From the NCBI RefSeq assembly GCF_003324485.1, contig NZ_QODK01000002.1:682001-746000 (forward strand): a stretch of 64,000 nt of DNA, in the 5' to 3' direction. The notes beneath the pieces are model-generated. The model made no database searches. It saw only the letters and a program-made list of their open reading frames with translations, and was not told where the DNA came from. Source of the DNA: Cohaesibacter intestini. Lineage in GTDB: Bacteria > Pseudomonadota > Alphaproteobacteria > Rhizobiales > Cohaesibacteraceae. This document shows positions 33,115 to 38,546 of this stretch, piece after piece (positions within the stretch are counted from its first letter, which is position 1; each line of letters begins with the position of its first letter). The translations under genes and the position numbers were made by a program.

Positions 33115-33189
33115 AGTTAGCCATTCTCAGTTGGCCATTCTCAGTTAGCCATTCTCAGTTCGCATTCTCAGTTCGCATTCTCAGTTCGC
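33115..33189. repeat. 14/13-nt tandem repeat over the subtilase stop codon
   Basis: Three copies of AGTTAGCCATTCTC (one with a G variant) are followed by two 13-nt copies of AGTTCGCATTCTC and a partial AGTTCGC. The last units contain the end of the subtilase frame, so unit loss or gain would leave the protein intact but alter the 3' region. Confidence 0.85.
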
Positions 33190-34740
33190 TTGGGCCGACT
33201 GGGTAACGTTGGTTACGGCCTTGAAGGCGTCAAGCCGCCCAAAGCCGAAGTCCCGGTCGCGCCCCGTCTCGCCCAGATCCAGCGCCGAGCGCGCCAGACG
33301 CTCCTTGATGGCTCGCACAGCAAGGTCAGGTTCACGCCCCAGCATCAAGGCAACCGACCCGGAAATATAGGCTGTTGCCATCGATGTACCGGTTTGCAGT
33401 CCATACCCGTCCAGTCCGGCAGCCACCAGCACATCGACGCCAGGCGCAGCCAGTTCCACATGCGTTCCGCGATTGGCAAAATCATAAAGGCCATCATCCT
33501 CATCGGTGGCGGTCACCGCAATCACATTGTCATAAGCCGCCGGATAAGCTGCAGGCGCATCCGCCCCCTCATTGCCAGCAGCAGCCACCATGATGACACC
33601 TTTGGCATCTGCTGCGTCGACTGCAGCTGCCAGAAGAGAATCCTGCCGCCCTGCAAAGCTGAGATTGAGAATCTTGGCGCCATTGGCCACCGCCCAGTCG
33701 ATGCCACGCACGATGTCGTAGCTGTCGCCCACCATGTGACCTGCCTCGTTGAACCGGAAAACCTGCGCCGACATCAAAGCCACGTCCCGCGCAACGCCTT
33801 TCATACCCGATTGCGCAGCAATGATCGAGGCCACAGCCGTGCCGTGGTCGGCATTGAGTGTCGCGCCATCAGCCTCAGGGAAGGCCGAGAAACTTTCGGT
33901 CACCTGCCCACCAATCGCCGGATGATCAGCTCTGATGCCGCTATCGATCACCGCCAGCTTAACCCCTTCACCGCTTTCACCATCGGTCAAGCGGGTCAGT
34001 CCCATCTTGGCGAAGGCATATTGCAGCTCGGCAAAAGGATCAGCGCTTTCGACCTGATTGTCCGCGGATGGATAGTAGTAATAGTTGGGTTGAGCGCGGA
34101 AAACCCGCTCATCAGTCGCCATGCGCAACGCTTCCTGCGGCGACATGCTCTCCGGATAGGCTACTTTCAAAACCACCTGATCCAGCAGCGCGACCCGCGT
34201 CTGCTCAAGTCGCGTCAATCCATATTGCTCAAGAAAGGCTTCAACGGTGGCCTGAGTCAGACCGGGTCGCAGGGTCACGACAAAATCCTTGTCACTCGAC
34301 CAGGGTTTATCGCCAATGGAATAGATGCGCGGCTTGGCCCGCGCCACGCGCAGCACCTCAGGCAGCACAATGCGTGGATTGTAACGCGGTGGCTTGGGAT
34401 TGCGCGCTTGCTGTGCCGGTCGTTTGGTCCGATTGGGCCGTTTCGTCACCTTGGGCCGCTTGGTGCGCACAGGTTTCTTGGTCTGTGGTGGCGGCGCGTC
34501 ATAGACCGGAGCCTCGCGCTGACGCTGGCGTTCCCGCTCCCGCACCCCTTGAATGATGGTGATACCAAGCCCGATAGCCGGACCGATCAGATTGCTGCCG
34601 CCCCGGTCCCGGTGTTTGGGTTTGCGAACGCTCTCACTGTAATAGTCATTGGCGTGAGATGGCGCGACAAAGTCTGGGCTCAGCAACAACAGGCACCCTA
34701 GCCCCATACAGGTCAATGTTTGAAAAGCTGCTCGTTTCAT
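33181..34740 (-). CDS. Exported S8 subtilase with pro-domain
   Basis: A 519-residue secreted serine protease. Start at 34740 with GGGGAGAGAC; signal peptide about residues 1-30. Residues 86-120 form a Lys/Arg/Pro-rich linker (KKPVRTKRPKVTKRP...). Residues about 152-220 (DFVVTLRPGLTQATVEAFLEQYG...RAQPNYYY) look like an inhibitor-I9 type pro-domain. The peptidase domain has the triad Asp266 (AVIDSGIRADHP), His299 (NADHGTAVASIIA) and Ser453 (GTSMATAYISG), with Asn390 in AAAGNEG. It is encoded after the ECF sigma and anti-sigma genes in the same direction, so a role in that signalling unit is likely. Confidence 0.92.
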   Translation of the reverse strand: MKRAAFQTLTCMGLGCLLLLSPDFVAPSHANDYYSESVRKPKHRDRGGSNLIGPAIGLGITIIQGVRERERQRQREAPVYDAPPPQTKKPVRTKRPKVTKRPNRTKRPAQQARNPKPPRYNPRIVLPEVLRVARAKPRIYSIGDKPWSSDKDFVVTLRPGLTQATVEAFLEQYGLTRLEQTRVALLDQVVLKVAYPESMSPQEALRMATDERVFRAQPNYYYYPSADNQVESADPFAELQYAFAKMGLTRLTDGESGEGVKLAVIDSGIRADHPAIGGQVTESFSAFPEADGATLNADHGTAVASIIAAQSGMKGVARDVALMSAQVFRFNEAGHMVGDSYDIVRGIDWAVANGAKILNLSFAGRQDSLLAAAVDAADAKGVIMVAAAGNEGADAPAAYPAAYDNVIAVTATDEDDGLYDFANRGTHVELAAPGVDVLVAAGLDGYGLQTGTSMATAYISGSVALMLGREPDLAVRAIKERLARSALDLGETGRDRDFGFGRLDAFKAVTNVTQSAQAN

Positions 34741-34904: not shown

Positions 34905-35597
34905 TCACTGGCTAACCGAGGCAAATTTAACCAGATCCGTGCTGTCTTTCAGGGCCTTGAGTACCACCTCAGCACCGCCTTCTGGCAGCTTGGTGTTGGG
35001 CACCATCAGCTCGAAAAAACCGCCAGCCTTCGGCCCGGCAACGATCACGGCATGTTGAGATTTCAGAAGCTTGGCAACATCGGCCATGCTTGCCTCACTC
35101 TTGAAGGCGATGAGGAACCGGGCGCCGGATTGCTGCGCGGCTTGCTCTGGTCCAGAGGCGGTTTTGAACTGACCGGACGCAGAAGGAGCAGCGGGTGCTC
35201 CGGGGCCAGTCTGCACAAGAGCACCGATAATCACCCCTTGGGCGACGATCACCACGGCAGCGGCAGCGGCGGCCAGTTGCATGCCGGGGCTTGCGAAATT
35301 ACCCAGAACGTCCTGAATACGCTGCCACACGCCTTTGGCTGCGGCCTGAACCGGCGCTTCCTTTGCTTCGAGCGCATCAATTCCGGCCATCAGACGGTCG
35401 AGCCCGCCGGGCATCGGCGCACCAAGGGCCGCATGCTGTTCGGCAATTGCCGTGTCTTCCTCGGCGATCAAATCCAACTGCATCCGCATCTCGGGGTTGG
35501 CCGCCAGATAGGCTTCCACCTGCTCTGATTCATGCGACTCCAACAGGCCTTTGGCATACCAAGGCAGGAGCTTTTCAATTTCCGGATCATAAGTCAT
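34905..35597 (-). CDS. Membrane-spanning anti-sigma factor with a pro-domain-like C-terminus
   Basis: A 230-residue protein starting 44 nt after the ECF sigma gene; start 35597 with GAGGACA. The N-terminal cytoplasmic part (EKLLPWYAKGLLESHESEQVEAYLAANPEMRMQLDLI) is a helical anti-sigma domain without the HxxxCxxC zinc motif. One membrane segment lies at about 106-128. The periplasmic part has an Ala/Pro/Gly linker and a C-terminal domain (160-230: RFLIAFKSEASMADVAKLLKSQHAVIV...VVLKALKDSTDLVKFASV). Its pattern of strands and helices matches the pro-domain of the neighbouring subtilase. It is expected to hold the sigma factor inactive until cleaved. Confidence 0.8.
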   Translation of the reverse strand: MTYDPEIEKLLPWYAKGLLESHESEQVEAYLAANPEMRMQLDLIAEEDTAIAEQHAALGAPMPGGLDRLMAGIDALEAKEAPVQAAAKGVWQRIQDVLGNFASPGMQLAAAAAAVVIVAQGVIIGALVQTGPGAPAAPSASGQFKTASGPEQAAQQSGARFLIAFKSEASMADVAKLLKSQHAVIVAGPKAGGFFELMVPNTKLPEGGAEVVLKALKDSTDLVKFASVSQ

Positions 35598-35641
35598 GTC
35601 TTTGTCCTCAACACTGGTATCCATAGGTCACGCCTTGTCCC

Positions 35642-36211
35642 TCATGGCCAGCCCCGGTCAAGACCGGCTTTGCGCATGAGTTCGGACAGTTTCTTTCGAG
35701 CATGAAACACCCGTGTCTTCACCGTATTGTCCGGAACCCCCAGAATCACGGCAATCTCCTTGATCGCCTTTTCCTGATAATAAACGAGATCAATCACTTC
35801 CCGATGCTCATCGCTGAGCTTGTTGATGCAGACCCGCAAGGCTGCGGCCTTATCCTGCTTCAGGGTCGTGACCTCCGGCGTGTCGCTGTCATCTTCCAGT
35901 CCGGATGCATAATCGTCATCCAGCTCGGCGTCCGAGCGCTTGCGCAGGAGCGAGATGGCCTTGTTGCGTCCGATGGAAATGATCCAGGACGAAACCTGAC
36001 TGCGTCCTTCAAACCTGTCGGCAGCTCGCCAGACATCGATGAAGGTCTCGTTCACAAGTTCCTCTGCCACCGCCTCGCTTTTCACGAAACGCAGCAAATA
36101 ACGATAAAGCCGAAGATGATGCCTCTGATACAGAAGCGCTATGGCTTTGCGATCATTGCGCGCAACCCCAGCCAGAAGCTCCAGGTCACGGGCATTTTCC
36201 GATCCAGACAT
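35642..36211 (-). CDS. ECF-family RNA polymerase sigma factor
   Basis: A 189-residue group 4 sigma factor. Region 2 (LLYQRHHLRLYRYLLRFVKSEAVAEELVNETFIDVWRAADRFEGRSQVSSWIISIGRNKAISLLRKR) and region 4 (CINKLSDEHREVIDLVYYQEKAIKEIAVILGVPDNTVKTRVFHARKKL) are complete, joined by an acidic linker. The start at 36211 (MSGSENARD) has GAGGATCG before it; a longer frame upstream is unlikely. The anti-sigma gene follows at once. A TTGAACC-N16-CGAC motif ends 30 nt before the start codon, consistent with autoregulation. Confidence 0.92.
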   Translation of the reverse strand: MSGSENARDLELLAGVARNDRKAIALLYQRHHLRLYRYLLRFVKSEAVAEELVNETFIDVWRAADRFEGRSQVSSWIISIGRNKAISLLRKRSDAELDDDYASGLEDDSDTPEVTTLKQDKAAALRVCINKLSDEHREVIDLVYYQEKAIKEIAVILGVPDNTVKTRVFHARKKLSELMRKAGLDRGWP

Positions 36212-36240: not shown

Positions 36241-36267
36241 GTCGTCTCACAGCGCAGTTTGGTTCAA
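36241..36267 (-). promoter_or_regulatory. Candidate ECF promoter of the sigma operon
   Basis: On the minus strand TTGAACC (36267-36261), 16 nt and CGAC (36244-36241) form a -35/-10 pair. CGAC lies 30 nt before the sigma start codon, leaving room for a short leader with the ribosome site. The same pair recurs at three places in the divergent gene group. Confidence 0.7.
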
Positions 36268-36581
36268 AGAAATGAAAAATTCTTTGTCTCCCTGCACCTC
36301 CCCTATTAATGGCACAGCTTTGGCGAAAACCCAACGGCTGCATGTTTGCAGCGTTGCGTCCATGTGACGGCGAGCTGCAAAGAGCATCCCGGCCGATCAT
36401 CAATAGTGGATGAACATCTGACACCGCCCATTTATGGCTGCTTCTCCCTCGATGCCCCTCTCACTCCCCCTTTCCTCCCGGTCCAAACCATTAGAAAAGC
36501 CACATCTCAAGATAGGATGGAAAAAATTTATTCAGCAAATTCAATGCCTTTTTAAAAACACCGAAAAAACTCCGAACATTT

Positions 36582-36608
36582 TTGAACCCTTTTGCCGCCC
36601 GCTGCGAC
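36582..36608 (+). promoter_or_regulatory. Candidate ECF promoter of BA14K-1
   Basis: TTGAACC (36582-36588), 16 nt and CGAC (36605-36608) lie 97 nt before the BA14K-1 start. Spacing and both elements match the sigma-gene site exactly. Confidence 0.7.
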
Positions 36609-36704
36609 TGATGAGTATAGGCGGCAGAAAACACCGCCACACAGTTTCAAAAAAGCGACACACAAGACCTTCAGATCAGACACACACCCTTTCGGAGAGA
36701 AACC

Positions 36705-37037
36705 ATGTTCAAGAAAACCATTATGACCATCGCCACCATCGCAACCGTAACCGCTGGCGCAACCTTCGCCTTGCCAACCTCAGAAGCCGAAGCCGCCGGT
36801 GGCCGCCGCGCAGCAGCCTTTGCCTTCGGTGCCGTCGCTGGCTTGACCGTCGGAGCCATCGCAGCCAACCGCCATAACCACTATTATCGCCACCATGCTC
36901 CGGCACCAGTCTATTACGGTCGCCCGGCACCCTGGACCCCGGCCTGGTATGATTACTGCTCTGCCCGCTACCGGTCCTTCAACCCGCATACCGGCTACTT
37001 CATCTCTTACGGTGGCCGTCAACGCTTCTGCCGCTAA
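36705..37037 (+). CDS. BA14K family exported protein, copy 1
   Basis: A 110-residue secreted protein with signal peptide MFKKTIMTIATIATVTAGATFALPTSEAEA, a Gly/Ala-rich hydrophobic stretch (AAFAFGAVAGLTVGAIAA) and the C-terminal BA14K signature (PAPWTPAWYDYCSARYRSFNPHTGYFISYGGRQRFCR), with two conserved Cys. The family is named after the Brucella 14-kDa immunoreactive, lectin-like antigen. The ribosome site CGGAGAGAAACC is nearly identical to that of copy 2, showing recent duplication. It is preceded by the ECF-like motif and followed by a terminator. Confidence 0.9.
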   Translation: MFKKTIMTIATIATVTAGATFALPTSEAEAAGGRRAAAFAFGAVAGLTVGAIAANRHNHYYRHHAPAPVYYGRPAPWTPAWYDYCSARYRSFNPHTGYFISYGGRQRFCR

Positions 37038-37080
37038 AAGTGTAGGACCACGCGACATCCTCCCTTTTGACCTTCCCCTT

Positions 37081-37108
37081 GGGCTGCCTTTCCGGCAGCC
37101 CTTTTTTT
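37081..37108 (+). terminator. Terminator of BA14K-1
   Basis: An 8-bp GGGCTGCC / GGCAGCCC stem with loop TTTCC is followed by seven T, 43 nt after the stop. Confidence 0.92.
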
Positions 37109-37155
37109 GTGCCCCTTCCCGGCGCTCCTCCCCCCAAATAGGCCGCTGCAAACAA

Positions 37156-37182
37156 TTGAACCAATTGGCCTTTCAGAGCGAC
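37156..37182 (+). promoter_or_regulatory. Candidate ECF promoter of the small exported ORF
   Basis: TTGAACC (37156-37162), 16 nt and CGAC (37179-37182) lie 71 nt before the ATG at 37253. This is the third copy of the sigma-type motif; it supports the short ORF being a real gene. Confidence 0.65.
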
Positions 37183-37252
37183 CTACGAGAAAGGCCATAT
37201 CCCAAGAAAAGACCATTCCATCCACCCCGAACCAGACAAGTCAGGATCCACC

Positions 37253-37477
37253 ATGCCCCGTCAAACCAAATTCATTGCCTTCTTGGTGGCTATCGTTGGA
37301 GCCCTGATTTTCTCTTTGCCGGATCAAGCCTGCAAATTGTCAGGCGGCCGCAAACTCGCAGAAGCGGCAGGCGTCATTGTCGAGCGCAGCAGCACCAAAG
37401 TCACCCAACGCGCCTCTGCTCAGACTCAGCCCCAGTTGCACATCATCTTTCTCGAAAAGGCCGCGAAAAAAGTTTGA
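37253..37477 (+). CDS. Small exported hypothetical protein between BA14K genes
   Basis: A 74-residue frame starting with a signal-peptide-like segment (MPRQTKFIAFLVAIVGALIFSLPDQA) similar in shape to those of the BA14K neighbours, but without the BA14K domain. The remaining 48 residues (CKLSGGRKLAEAAG...LHIIFLEKAAKKV) are basic and end with one Cys at the cleavage point; the pre-Cys sequence DQA is not a standard lipobox. Codon choice looks like that of the neighbours. The ECF-like motif upstream supports expression. It may be a degenerate BA14K copy that kept only its signal peptide. Confidence 0.5.
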   Translation: MPRQTKFIAFLVAIVGALIFSLPDQACKLSGGRKLAEAAGVIVERSSTKVTQRASAQTQPQLHIIFLEKAAKKV

Positions 37478-37500
37478 ACCATTCCGGCCACCACCGCGTC
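37474..37500 (+). promoter_or_regulatory. Candidate ECF promoter of BA14K-2
   Basis: TTGAACC (37474-37480), 16 nt and CGTC (37497-37500) lie 92 nt before the BA14K-2 ATG and overlap the last codons of the small exported ORF. The -10 element differs at one base from the other three. Confidence 0.65.
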
Positions 37501-37591: not shown

Positions 37592-37951
37592 ATGTTTAAG
37601 AAAGCCATCACCACTTTTGCTCTGGTTGCCACACTCGCAACCGCCGCTACCTTTGCCGCCCCAACCACCGAAGCCGAAGCCCGCGGGCGTGGCGGAGCCT
37701 TCGTGGCAGGCGCCATTACCGGACTTGCCGTTGGCACCATCGCCCACGCCCGCCACCGTCACCATGGCCACCGCTATTACGGCCATCGTTATTATGGCCC
37801 GCGCTATCGCCCGCATCGCGCTCGCTATTATGGTCGTCCGGCCCCTTGGACCCGTGCCTGGTACCGCTACTGCTCCAGCAAGTATCGGTCGTTCAATCCG
37901 CGCACCGGTTACTTCACCTCCTATGGCGGTCGCAAACGGTTCTGCCGCTAA
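37592..37951 (+). CDS. BA14K family exported protein, copy 2
   Basis: A 119-residue secreted protein with signal peptide MFKKAITTFALVATLATAATFAAPTTEAEA, a Gly-rich segment (RGRGGAFVAGAITGLAVG), a His/Tyr/Arg-rich stretch (RHRHHGHRYYGHRYYGPRYRPHR) and the BA14K signature APWTRAWYRYCSSKYRSFNPRTGYFTSYGGRKRFCR. The His-rich part could bind metal or carbohydrate (inference). It shares promoter motif, ribosome site and signal peptide pattern with copy 1. A 13-bp GC-rich hairpin follows. Confidence 0.9.
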   Translation: MFKKAITTFALVATLATAATFAAPTTEAEARGRGGAFVAGAITGLAVGTIAHARHRHHGHRYYGHRYYGPRYRPHRARYYGRPAPWTRAWYRYCSSKYRSFNPRTGYFTSYGGRKRFCR

Positions 37952-38138: not shown

Positions 38139-38546
38139 ATGATCAGACGAAATCTATCAATTTATCTGCTAGTTGCTGCGATTCTCCCTGCGCTGATGAT
38201 CACCGTTCCAACCTCGGACGCGCAGGCCAGAAGCCGCACAGGGGCTTTCGTTGCCGGCATTGTGATCGGCGCCGCTGGCGCTGCCGCGCTTTATCACCAC
38301 AGCAACAAGCGTTGGAATCGTGCCCGCAACCACTATCACCGCACCTTTCGCAGAGGGTGCCACACCCATAATGGCGTGCGCCATTGCCACCGCGCCCGCT
38401 CCTATCGGGCCTCACCGGTTTATTCCGGGCGCCCCAGACCATGGACTCGGGCATGGTATCGCTATTGCTCCAACAAATACCGGTCTTTCAATCCACGGAC
38501 TGGCTATTTCACCACCTATAGCGGCCGCAAGCGCTTTTGCCGGTAA
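38139..38546 (+). CDS. BA14K family exported protein, copy 3
   Basis: A 135-residue secreted protein: signal peptide MIRRNLSIYLLVAAILPALMITVPTSDAQA, then RTGAFVAGIVIGAAGAAALYHHSNKRW, a His/Arg-rich segment with two extra Cys (RRGCHTHNGVRHCHRARS) and the BA14K end RPWTRAWYRYCSNKYRSFNPRTGYFTTYSGRKRFCR. Unlike copies 1 and 2 it has a different leader (AAGGAGCACCA) and no TTGAACC-N16-CG(A/T)C motif was found upstream, so it is probably under other control. Confidence 0.9.
   Translation: MIRRNLSIYLLVAAILPALMITVPTSDAQARSRTGAFVAGIVIGAAGAAALYHHSNKRWNRARNHYHRTFRRGCHTHNGVRHCHRARSYRASPVYSGRPRPWTRAWYRYCSNKYRSFNPRTGYFTTYSGRKRFCR

Follow-up and report, generated by a model that had tools for sequence, protein, structure and literature searches.

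Small regulons headed by extracytoplasmic function (ECF) sigma factors have been described in Sinorhizobium meliloti, where, according to excerpts of PMC6180224, the ECF26 sigma factors RpoE1, RpoE4 and RpoE6 have membrane anti-sigma factors encoded downstream and several of them are autoregulated. RpoE6 controls, and is divergent to, the serine protease gene SMa0142, and the activation mechanism of ECF26 is termed hypothetical in the same excerpts. The general stress sigma factor RpoE1 of Brucella abortus regulates a ba14k gene, the system working via NepR and PhyR (excerpts of PMC8315932). Here we describe a stretch of 64,000 nucleotides (nt) from Cohaesibacter intestini (contig NZ_QODK01000002.1, positions 682,001 to 746,000; the window), part of a 4.79 Mb genome, in which four TTGAACC-N16-CG(A/T)C sites, N16 being a 16-nt spacer, precede the gene of an ECF sigma factor, two genes of BA14K proteins and a small open reading frame (ORF) of exported type. 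These sites are very probably promoters recognised by RNA polymerase holoenzyme with the product of the ECF sigma gene at 35642-36211, a sigma factor that would drive its own transcription unit and, in trans, a regulon of exported proteins.

The locus resembles the S. meliloti ECF26 systems, as excerpted, in combining an ECF sigma factor and a downstream membrane anti-sigma factor with a small regulon and a neighbouring serine protease, and the S8 protease ORF beside the pSymA sigma gene was 37% identical to the window protease over 293 amino acids (aa). The rpoE4 promoter, read by eye from Table 1 of the PMC6180224 excerpts as TGGAATA-N16-CGTC, is close in shape to TTGAACC-N16-CGWC (W being A or T). 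Unlike ECF26, for which the same excerpts give a cross-species consensus of GGAATA at -35 and GT at -10, the window sites carry TTGAACC at -35, the CGWC at -10 being partly compatible; over 148 aa the window sigma factor shared only 32% identity with RpoE6, the pSymA sigma factor, and because of this low identity and the differing -35 element it was not filed under ECF26. Unlike the RpoE6 locus, the window protease gene lies downstream in the same direction and the targets are small exported proteins. A BA14K gene under an ECF sigma factor, as proposed here, has been reported for Brucella RpoE1, whereas the window sigma factor is S8-linked and has a membrane anti-sigma factor and a local BA14K cluster of its own. 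The Brucella BcrS/AbcS system (ECF16) likewise pairs an ECF sigma factor that controls its own expression with an anti-sigma protein and has few direct targets, but its consensus is (T/C)GTAAC-N17-CGAA, its targets are others and its signal is hypochlorous acid (excerpts of PMC8315932). Searches of the open-access literature found no link between an S8-neighbouring ECF sigma factor and BA14K proteins and nothing on Cohaesibacter sigma factors. An autoregulated ECF circuit is of a known kind, while the targets and the motif look new and the sensor is perhaps new.

Exactly four matches to the pattern were found on both strands of the window, where 0.07 were expected (100 dinucleotide shuffles, largest count 1). 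A preliminary description made from the sequence alone had given the four sites with coordinates, strands, 16-nt spacer and CGAC or CGTC endings that were all correct on the rescan, which also agreed that there was no further full match. The sites and the genes at issue are as follows.

36241..36267, minus strand: site 1, CGAC, before the putative sigma/anti-sigma operon, ending 29 nt before the sigma start codon
36582..36608, plus strand: site 2, before BA14K-1, ending 96 nt before its start codon
37156..37182, plus strand: site 3, before the 74-aa exported-type ORF, ending 70 nt before its start codon; kept in the closest relative (G175)
37474..37500, plus strand: site 4, before BA14K-2, overlapping the stop codon of the 74-aa ORF and ending 91 nt before the BA14K-2 start codon; kept in G175
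35642..36211, minus strand: ECF sigma factor, 189 aa (PF04542, 7e-18; PF08281, 2e-14; NF009168, 3e-77, over cut-off)
36705..37037, plus strand: BA14K-1, 110 aa, exported-type (PF07886, 2e-12, 47.2 bits, cut-off 26)
37253..37477, plus strand: small exported-type ORF, 74 aa, from the ORF list, with homologues in G175 and G205
37592..37951, plus strand: BA14K-2, 119 aa, exported-type (PF07886, 6e-11, 42.6 bits, cut-off 26)
38139..38546, plus strand: BA14K-3, 135 aa (PF07886, 1e-11, 44.6 bits, cut-off 26)

The sigma gene was found in 15 of the 18 Cohaesibacter genomes, and the exact site lay upstream of it in all 15. At each of these loci a profile scan also placed a site before a BA14K gene, ten times in exact form and five times with a single substitution at the first or second base. 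Across the 15 sigma-bearing genomes the 16-nt spacing occurred at 121 sites against 371 over six other spacings (61.8 each, p=1e-9), while the three genomes without a match to the sigma factor (completeness 100%, 90% and 64%) had 10 sites against 47 (7.8 each, p=0.29). The 16-nt spacing is thus over-represented only where the sigma gene occurs; conservation, spacing and this co-occurrence were observed directly. Together, the conserved site before sigma at 15 of 15 loci, its exact spacing and its dependence on the presence of the sigma gene argue for the autoregulated ECF sigma factor that the preliminary description had proposed. It is improbable that the sites belong to another regulator or to another ECF sigma factor of common specificity, with the local sigma gene merely one target. 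ECF factors of one group do cross-recognise promoters in S. meliloti (excerpts of PMC6180224 and PMC10880074), and at first look each genus genome held other sigma candidates, none of them matching at an E-value of 1e-50; against this, the excess of the 16-nt spacing was gone in the three genomes lacking a match to this sigma factor, the exact site stands directly before this same sigma gene in other families too, and a fixed orientation and spacing suit a promoter better than an operator.

For the window genome as a whole, 15 exact matches were found compared with two for the reversed pattern, and spacers of 13-15 and 17-19 nt gave 29 matches or 4.8 per spacing (p=0.0008 for N16). Seven of the 15 were good promoter candidates, comprising the four local sites and three unlinked ones. 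The unlinked sites stand 39, 44 and 78 nt ahead of the genes of exported-type proteins (92, 153 and 154 aa), and for each protein a homologue in a different genome of the genus likewise has a site (L106; L141 and, by eye, L085; L151). Alignment of 51 unique sites, selected by the exact core and including 26 loci that had been picked as exported-gene sites, showed that the upstream sequence is rich in A and T and that CGWC is preceded by a purine in all 51 and followed three bases later by an A in 50 of 51. A stricter pattern with flank bases added and the first base left free matched ten times in the window genome against once when reversed, the ten being the seven promoter candidates together with L001, L003 and L350, the last without an ORF of at least 45 aa starting within 160 nt.

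The preliminary description had proposed scanning the genome for the motif and testing for enrichment before start codons. For the latter, all 101 non-local N16 sites of the 18 genomes were compared with 60 controls of wrong spacing, a subset of the sites listed, taken from three genomes, under a rule that asked for an ATG 15-140 nt downstream, an ORF of at least 55 aa, four of six ribosome-binding-site bases and a crude signal peptide. Such a gene followed 27 of the 101 sites and one of the 60 controls (Fisher p=1e-5); without the ribosome-binding-site condition the counts were 30 of 101 and 7 of 60 (p=0.006). This association with the starts of exported proteins is likewise a direct observation. 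The 27 sites represented 13 families of mostly small proteins, and six regulon proteins had no Pfam family at E 0.01. As a check on circularity, a flank model built from 29 sigma-locus sites with the core bases omitted ranked 28 exported-gene sites (the 27 and L105) over 73 others with an area under the receiver operating characteristic curve of 0.906. Some of the high-scoring others, such as L085 and L092, looked by eye like members that the target rule had overlooked. The small-protein regulon including BA14K genes, as first described, was supported by the conservation and spacing of the site, by its occurring together with sigma and by its association with exported-protein starts, while confinement of the regulon to the locus was not: three unlinked genes here and 13 exported-type families across the genus carried the site, and a purely local regulon was ruled out by the unlinked sites before exported genes. 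It is barely credible that the sites have no regulatory role and are either chance matches or products of duplication of the region upstream of a BA14K gene; two of them do precede paralogous genes, but the four spacers have by eye no common sequence, sites also stand before non-homologous genes of the 13 families and before the divergent sigma gene, and they are kept across species while the spacers change.

The site-bearing families also included small membrane or exported proteins, most of 87-90 aa, with a CIAxKGxxTCxP-like end, which carried the site in several Cohaesibacter genomes (L074, L082, L087, L116, L132, L140, L148 and L157). None of the 15 exact sites in the window genome preceded a member of this family.

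Across the order, 54 of the 199 genomes searched held relatives of the anti-sigma factor encoded beside the sigma gene. Twenty loci were drawn from these 54 genomes, four in the genus and 16 outside, and the exact site lay before and facing the sigma gene in eight of the 16. With an alignment of 20 sigma sequences as query, 585 matches were confirmed, the best of which, 80 named loci, were used. Among the 79 of these with at least 150 nt upstream, 24 had the exact site 46-93 nt before the sigma gene, 22 of them outside Cohaesibacter, and altogether 33 exact sites occurred over 1.8 Mb of strand. The site before sigma is found again in other Hyphomicrobiales, the site-bearing loci outside the genus including Bosea, Phreatobacter, Rhodoplanes, one Beijerinckiaceae and several Hyphomicrobiaceae records, while most loci from Bradyrhizobium were without it.

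Several results weigh against the proposed promoter regulon. Eight of the 15 exact matches in the window genome looked like background: six fall inside ORFs whose codon use is coding-like, L011 inside one whose codon use is not, and L003 ahead of an ORF that has no signal peptide. With 4.8 matches expected from the other spacings, the bare pattern is therefore unspecific and was dropped as a marker; the flanks make the pattern much more specific. BA14K-3 (38139-38546) has no site of its own and is perhaps transcribed by read-through from BA14K-2. The 27 target sites are not independent, since they include orthologues, the 101 sites came from 18 genomes and the 60 controls from only three, and the signal-peptide rule was crude and home-made. 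One of the 27, L093, came from an incomplete genome (G203) in which the sigma gene was not found, and one wrong-spacing control, L211, satisfied the target rule. Finally, 55 of the 79 named loci, many from Bradyrhizobium and its kin, had no exact site in the 250 nt before the sigma gene. Three of the 55 had a site with the first base changed. The site profile was also run over 3 kb at ten loci that lack a nearby site (Bradyrhizobium, Tardiphaga, Afipia, Nitrobacter, Rhodopseudomonas and Rhodoblastus); nine had nothing above a score of 10, and in L244 a site lay 440 nt upstream.

Orthologous sigma and anti-sigma genes, with S8 in many of the loci, occurred in L263, L301 and further loci of Bradyrhizobium with no TTGAACC site within 250 nt upstream; their promoter must differ or lie elsewhere. 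L211 (C3:428480-430905 of the window genome, with the site at C3:429680 and a 15-nt spacer) stands before an exported protein, VWA-type by eye, whose ribosome-binding site is good, and is perhaps a genuine target.

BA14K proteins are poorly known in function, having been noted mainly as Brucella antigens. Two BA14K genes unlinked to sigma in G199 carried the site (L100/L101 and L318/L333, counted among the 27), and control of BA14K genes therefore needs no linkage. The other BA14K loci scanned, which lie at a distance from sigma or in genomes lacking it (L019, L020, L321, L322 and L331), had no site, nor had two more BA14K genes in the window genome (C1:467652-468421), so not every BA14K gene belongs to the regulon. 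Among the 80 named loci, the best of the 585 confirmed matches, BA14K neighbours of sigma were seen at E 1e-5 in only two, both Cohaesibacter, and the 16 non-genus loci of the order had none at E 1e-3. BA14K as a conserved core was dropped, there being none beside sigma at E 1e-5 in the 78 other named loci; as far as seen, these genes appear to be a lineage-specific part whose recruitment is a Cohaesibacter trait. In 61 of 73 of these named loci an S8 protease gene followed sigma in the same orientation. Since S8 is this frequent and BA14K neighbours occurred only in the two Cohaesibacter loci, sigma, anti-sigma and S8 would form the old module, often with a self-promoter. The anti-sigma and S8 protease genes of this widely conserved module had gone unmentioned in the preliminary description.

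Leftward from 36211 the gene order is ECF sigma factor, membrane anti-sigma factor and exported S8 protease, and rightward it is BA14K-1, the 74-aa ORF, BA14K-2 and BA14K-3. The sigma factor has only sigma-70 regions 2 and 4 (PF04542, residues 27-93; PF08281, residues 124-175; both over cut-off), and its closest named relatives by identity were those of Cohaesibacter marisflavi (85%) and C. haloalkalitolerans (83%), the window's own record possibly being outside the search. Homologues of the 74-aa ORF were 59% identical in G175 and, as a partial match, 50% in G205. The remaining features are the following.

34905..35624, minus strand: membrane anti-sigma factor, 239 aa, with an N-terminal anti-sigma-type domain, a helix (residues 113-138) taken as membrane segment and a periplasmic domain
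34908..35129, minus strand: anti-sigma periplasmic domain, residues 166-239, with a predicted subtilase-propeptide-like fold (beta-alpha-beta-beta-alpha-beta)
33181..34740, minus strand: exported S8 (subtilisin-type) protease, 519 aa (PF00082, 1.7e-46, 159 bits)
34072..34326, minus strand: S8 protease propeptide region, about residues 139-223, by extraction from protease sequences
37081..37101, plus strand: terminator-like hairpin with T-run, 3' of BA14K-1, by sequence scan

The hairpin fits a separate promoter for the 74-aa ORF and is no evidence alone, because terminator-like sites numbered five in the region with 4.4 expected from shuffles.

The protein encoded beside sigma is a putative cognate anti-sigma factor, judged by its anti-sigma-type domain and long hydrophobic helix. 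Domain zf-HC2 was detected in 33 of 40 members of its family at E up to 1 (best 1.2e-5), the window member having no match, and other anti-sigma models matched the window protein below their cut-offs. Its structure model had predicted local distance difference test (pLDDT) scores of 94-98 from residue 171 on, in the periplasmic domain. The window protease carried the Asp, His and Ser motifs VIDSG (264), HGTA (299) and GTSMA (451). The anti-sigma periplasmic domain and the S8 propeptide look like the same kind of domain. PF22148, the model for a fervidolysin/subtilase propeptide-like domain, was shown over its curated cut-off in none of the anti-sigma members and reached E up to 1 in three of 40 (best 0.0019); L237 scored 18.9 bits against a cut-off of 21 and the window anti-sigma factor did not match. 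The same model was over cut-off in three of the eight S8 proteases scanned, the window protease not among them, and some propeptides extracted from S8 relatives were mis-cut. Searching PDB sequences with the profile of the anti-sigma factor returned chance matches only. The fold, as predicted, may correspond to that of subtilase propeptides and propeptide-type inhibitors such as pro-subtilisin and POIA1; unlike these, the window domain is fused to a membrane anti-sigma factor. No link between a propeptide-like (subtilisin or fervidolysin) domain and an anti-sigma factor was found in the open-access literature, where one paper on anti-sigma factors and subtilases dealt with proteolysis of sigma itself.

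This likeness suggests a protease-docking sensor. It is quite possible, though short of probable, that the periplasmic domain mimics a propeptide and docks the S8 protease, whose state (folded, active or titrated by substrate) would set cleavage of the anti-sigma factor and release of sigma. Such a mimic would extend the explanation of the regulon by naming its sensor. More tentatively, an anti-sigma factor with a propeptide copy may read the state of S8, so that a protease drawn off or activated by envelope damage would free or cut it and sigma would induce the exported proteins, including BA14K.

For the circuit itself, we infer that the sites act as promoters and depend on sigma, how far the operon extends, how the anti-sigma factor acts and that an envelope signal is involved, as follows. 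The promoter would consist of TTGAACC at -35 and gCGWC with a downstream A at -10. RNA polymerase with the ECF sigma factor would drive the sigma/anti-sigma unit, probably including the S8 protease gene, with the two BA14K proteins, the 74-aa protein and, perhaps by read-through, BA14K-3 as local targets and the unlinked 92-, 153- and 154-aa proteins as targets in trans. The membrane anti-sigma factor would hold sigma until an envelope signal frees it.

Taken with its flanks, the site should be of use in cataloguing the regulon across further Cohaesibacter genomes. If the propeptide mimic is true, it would explain the subtilase beside sigma in many Hyphomicrobiales and provide a directly testable sensor. 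The conserved promoter offers a first handle on BA14K and the family-less proteins, all of which should respond together when sigma is deleted.
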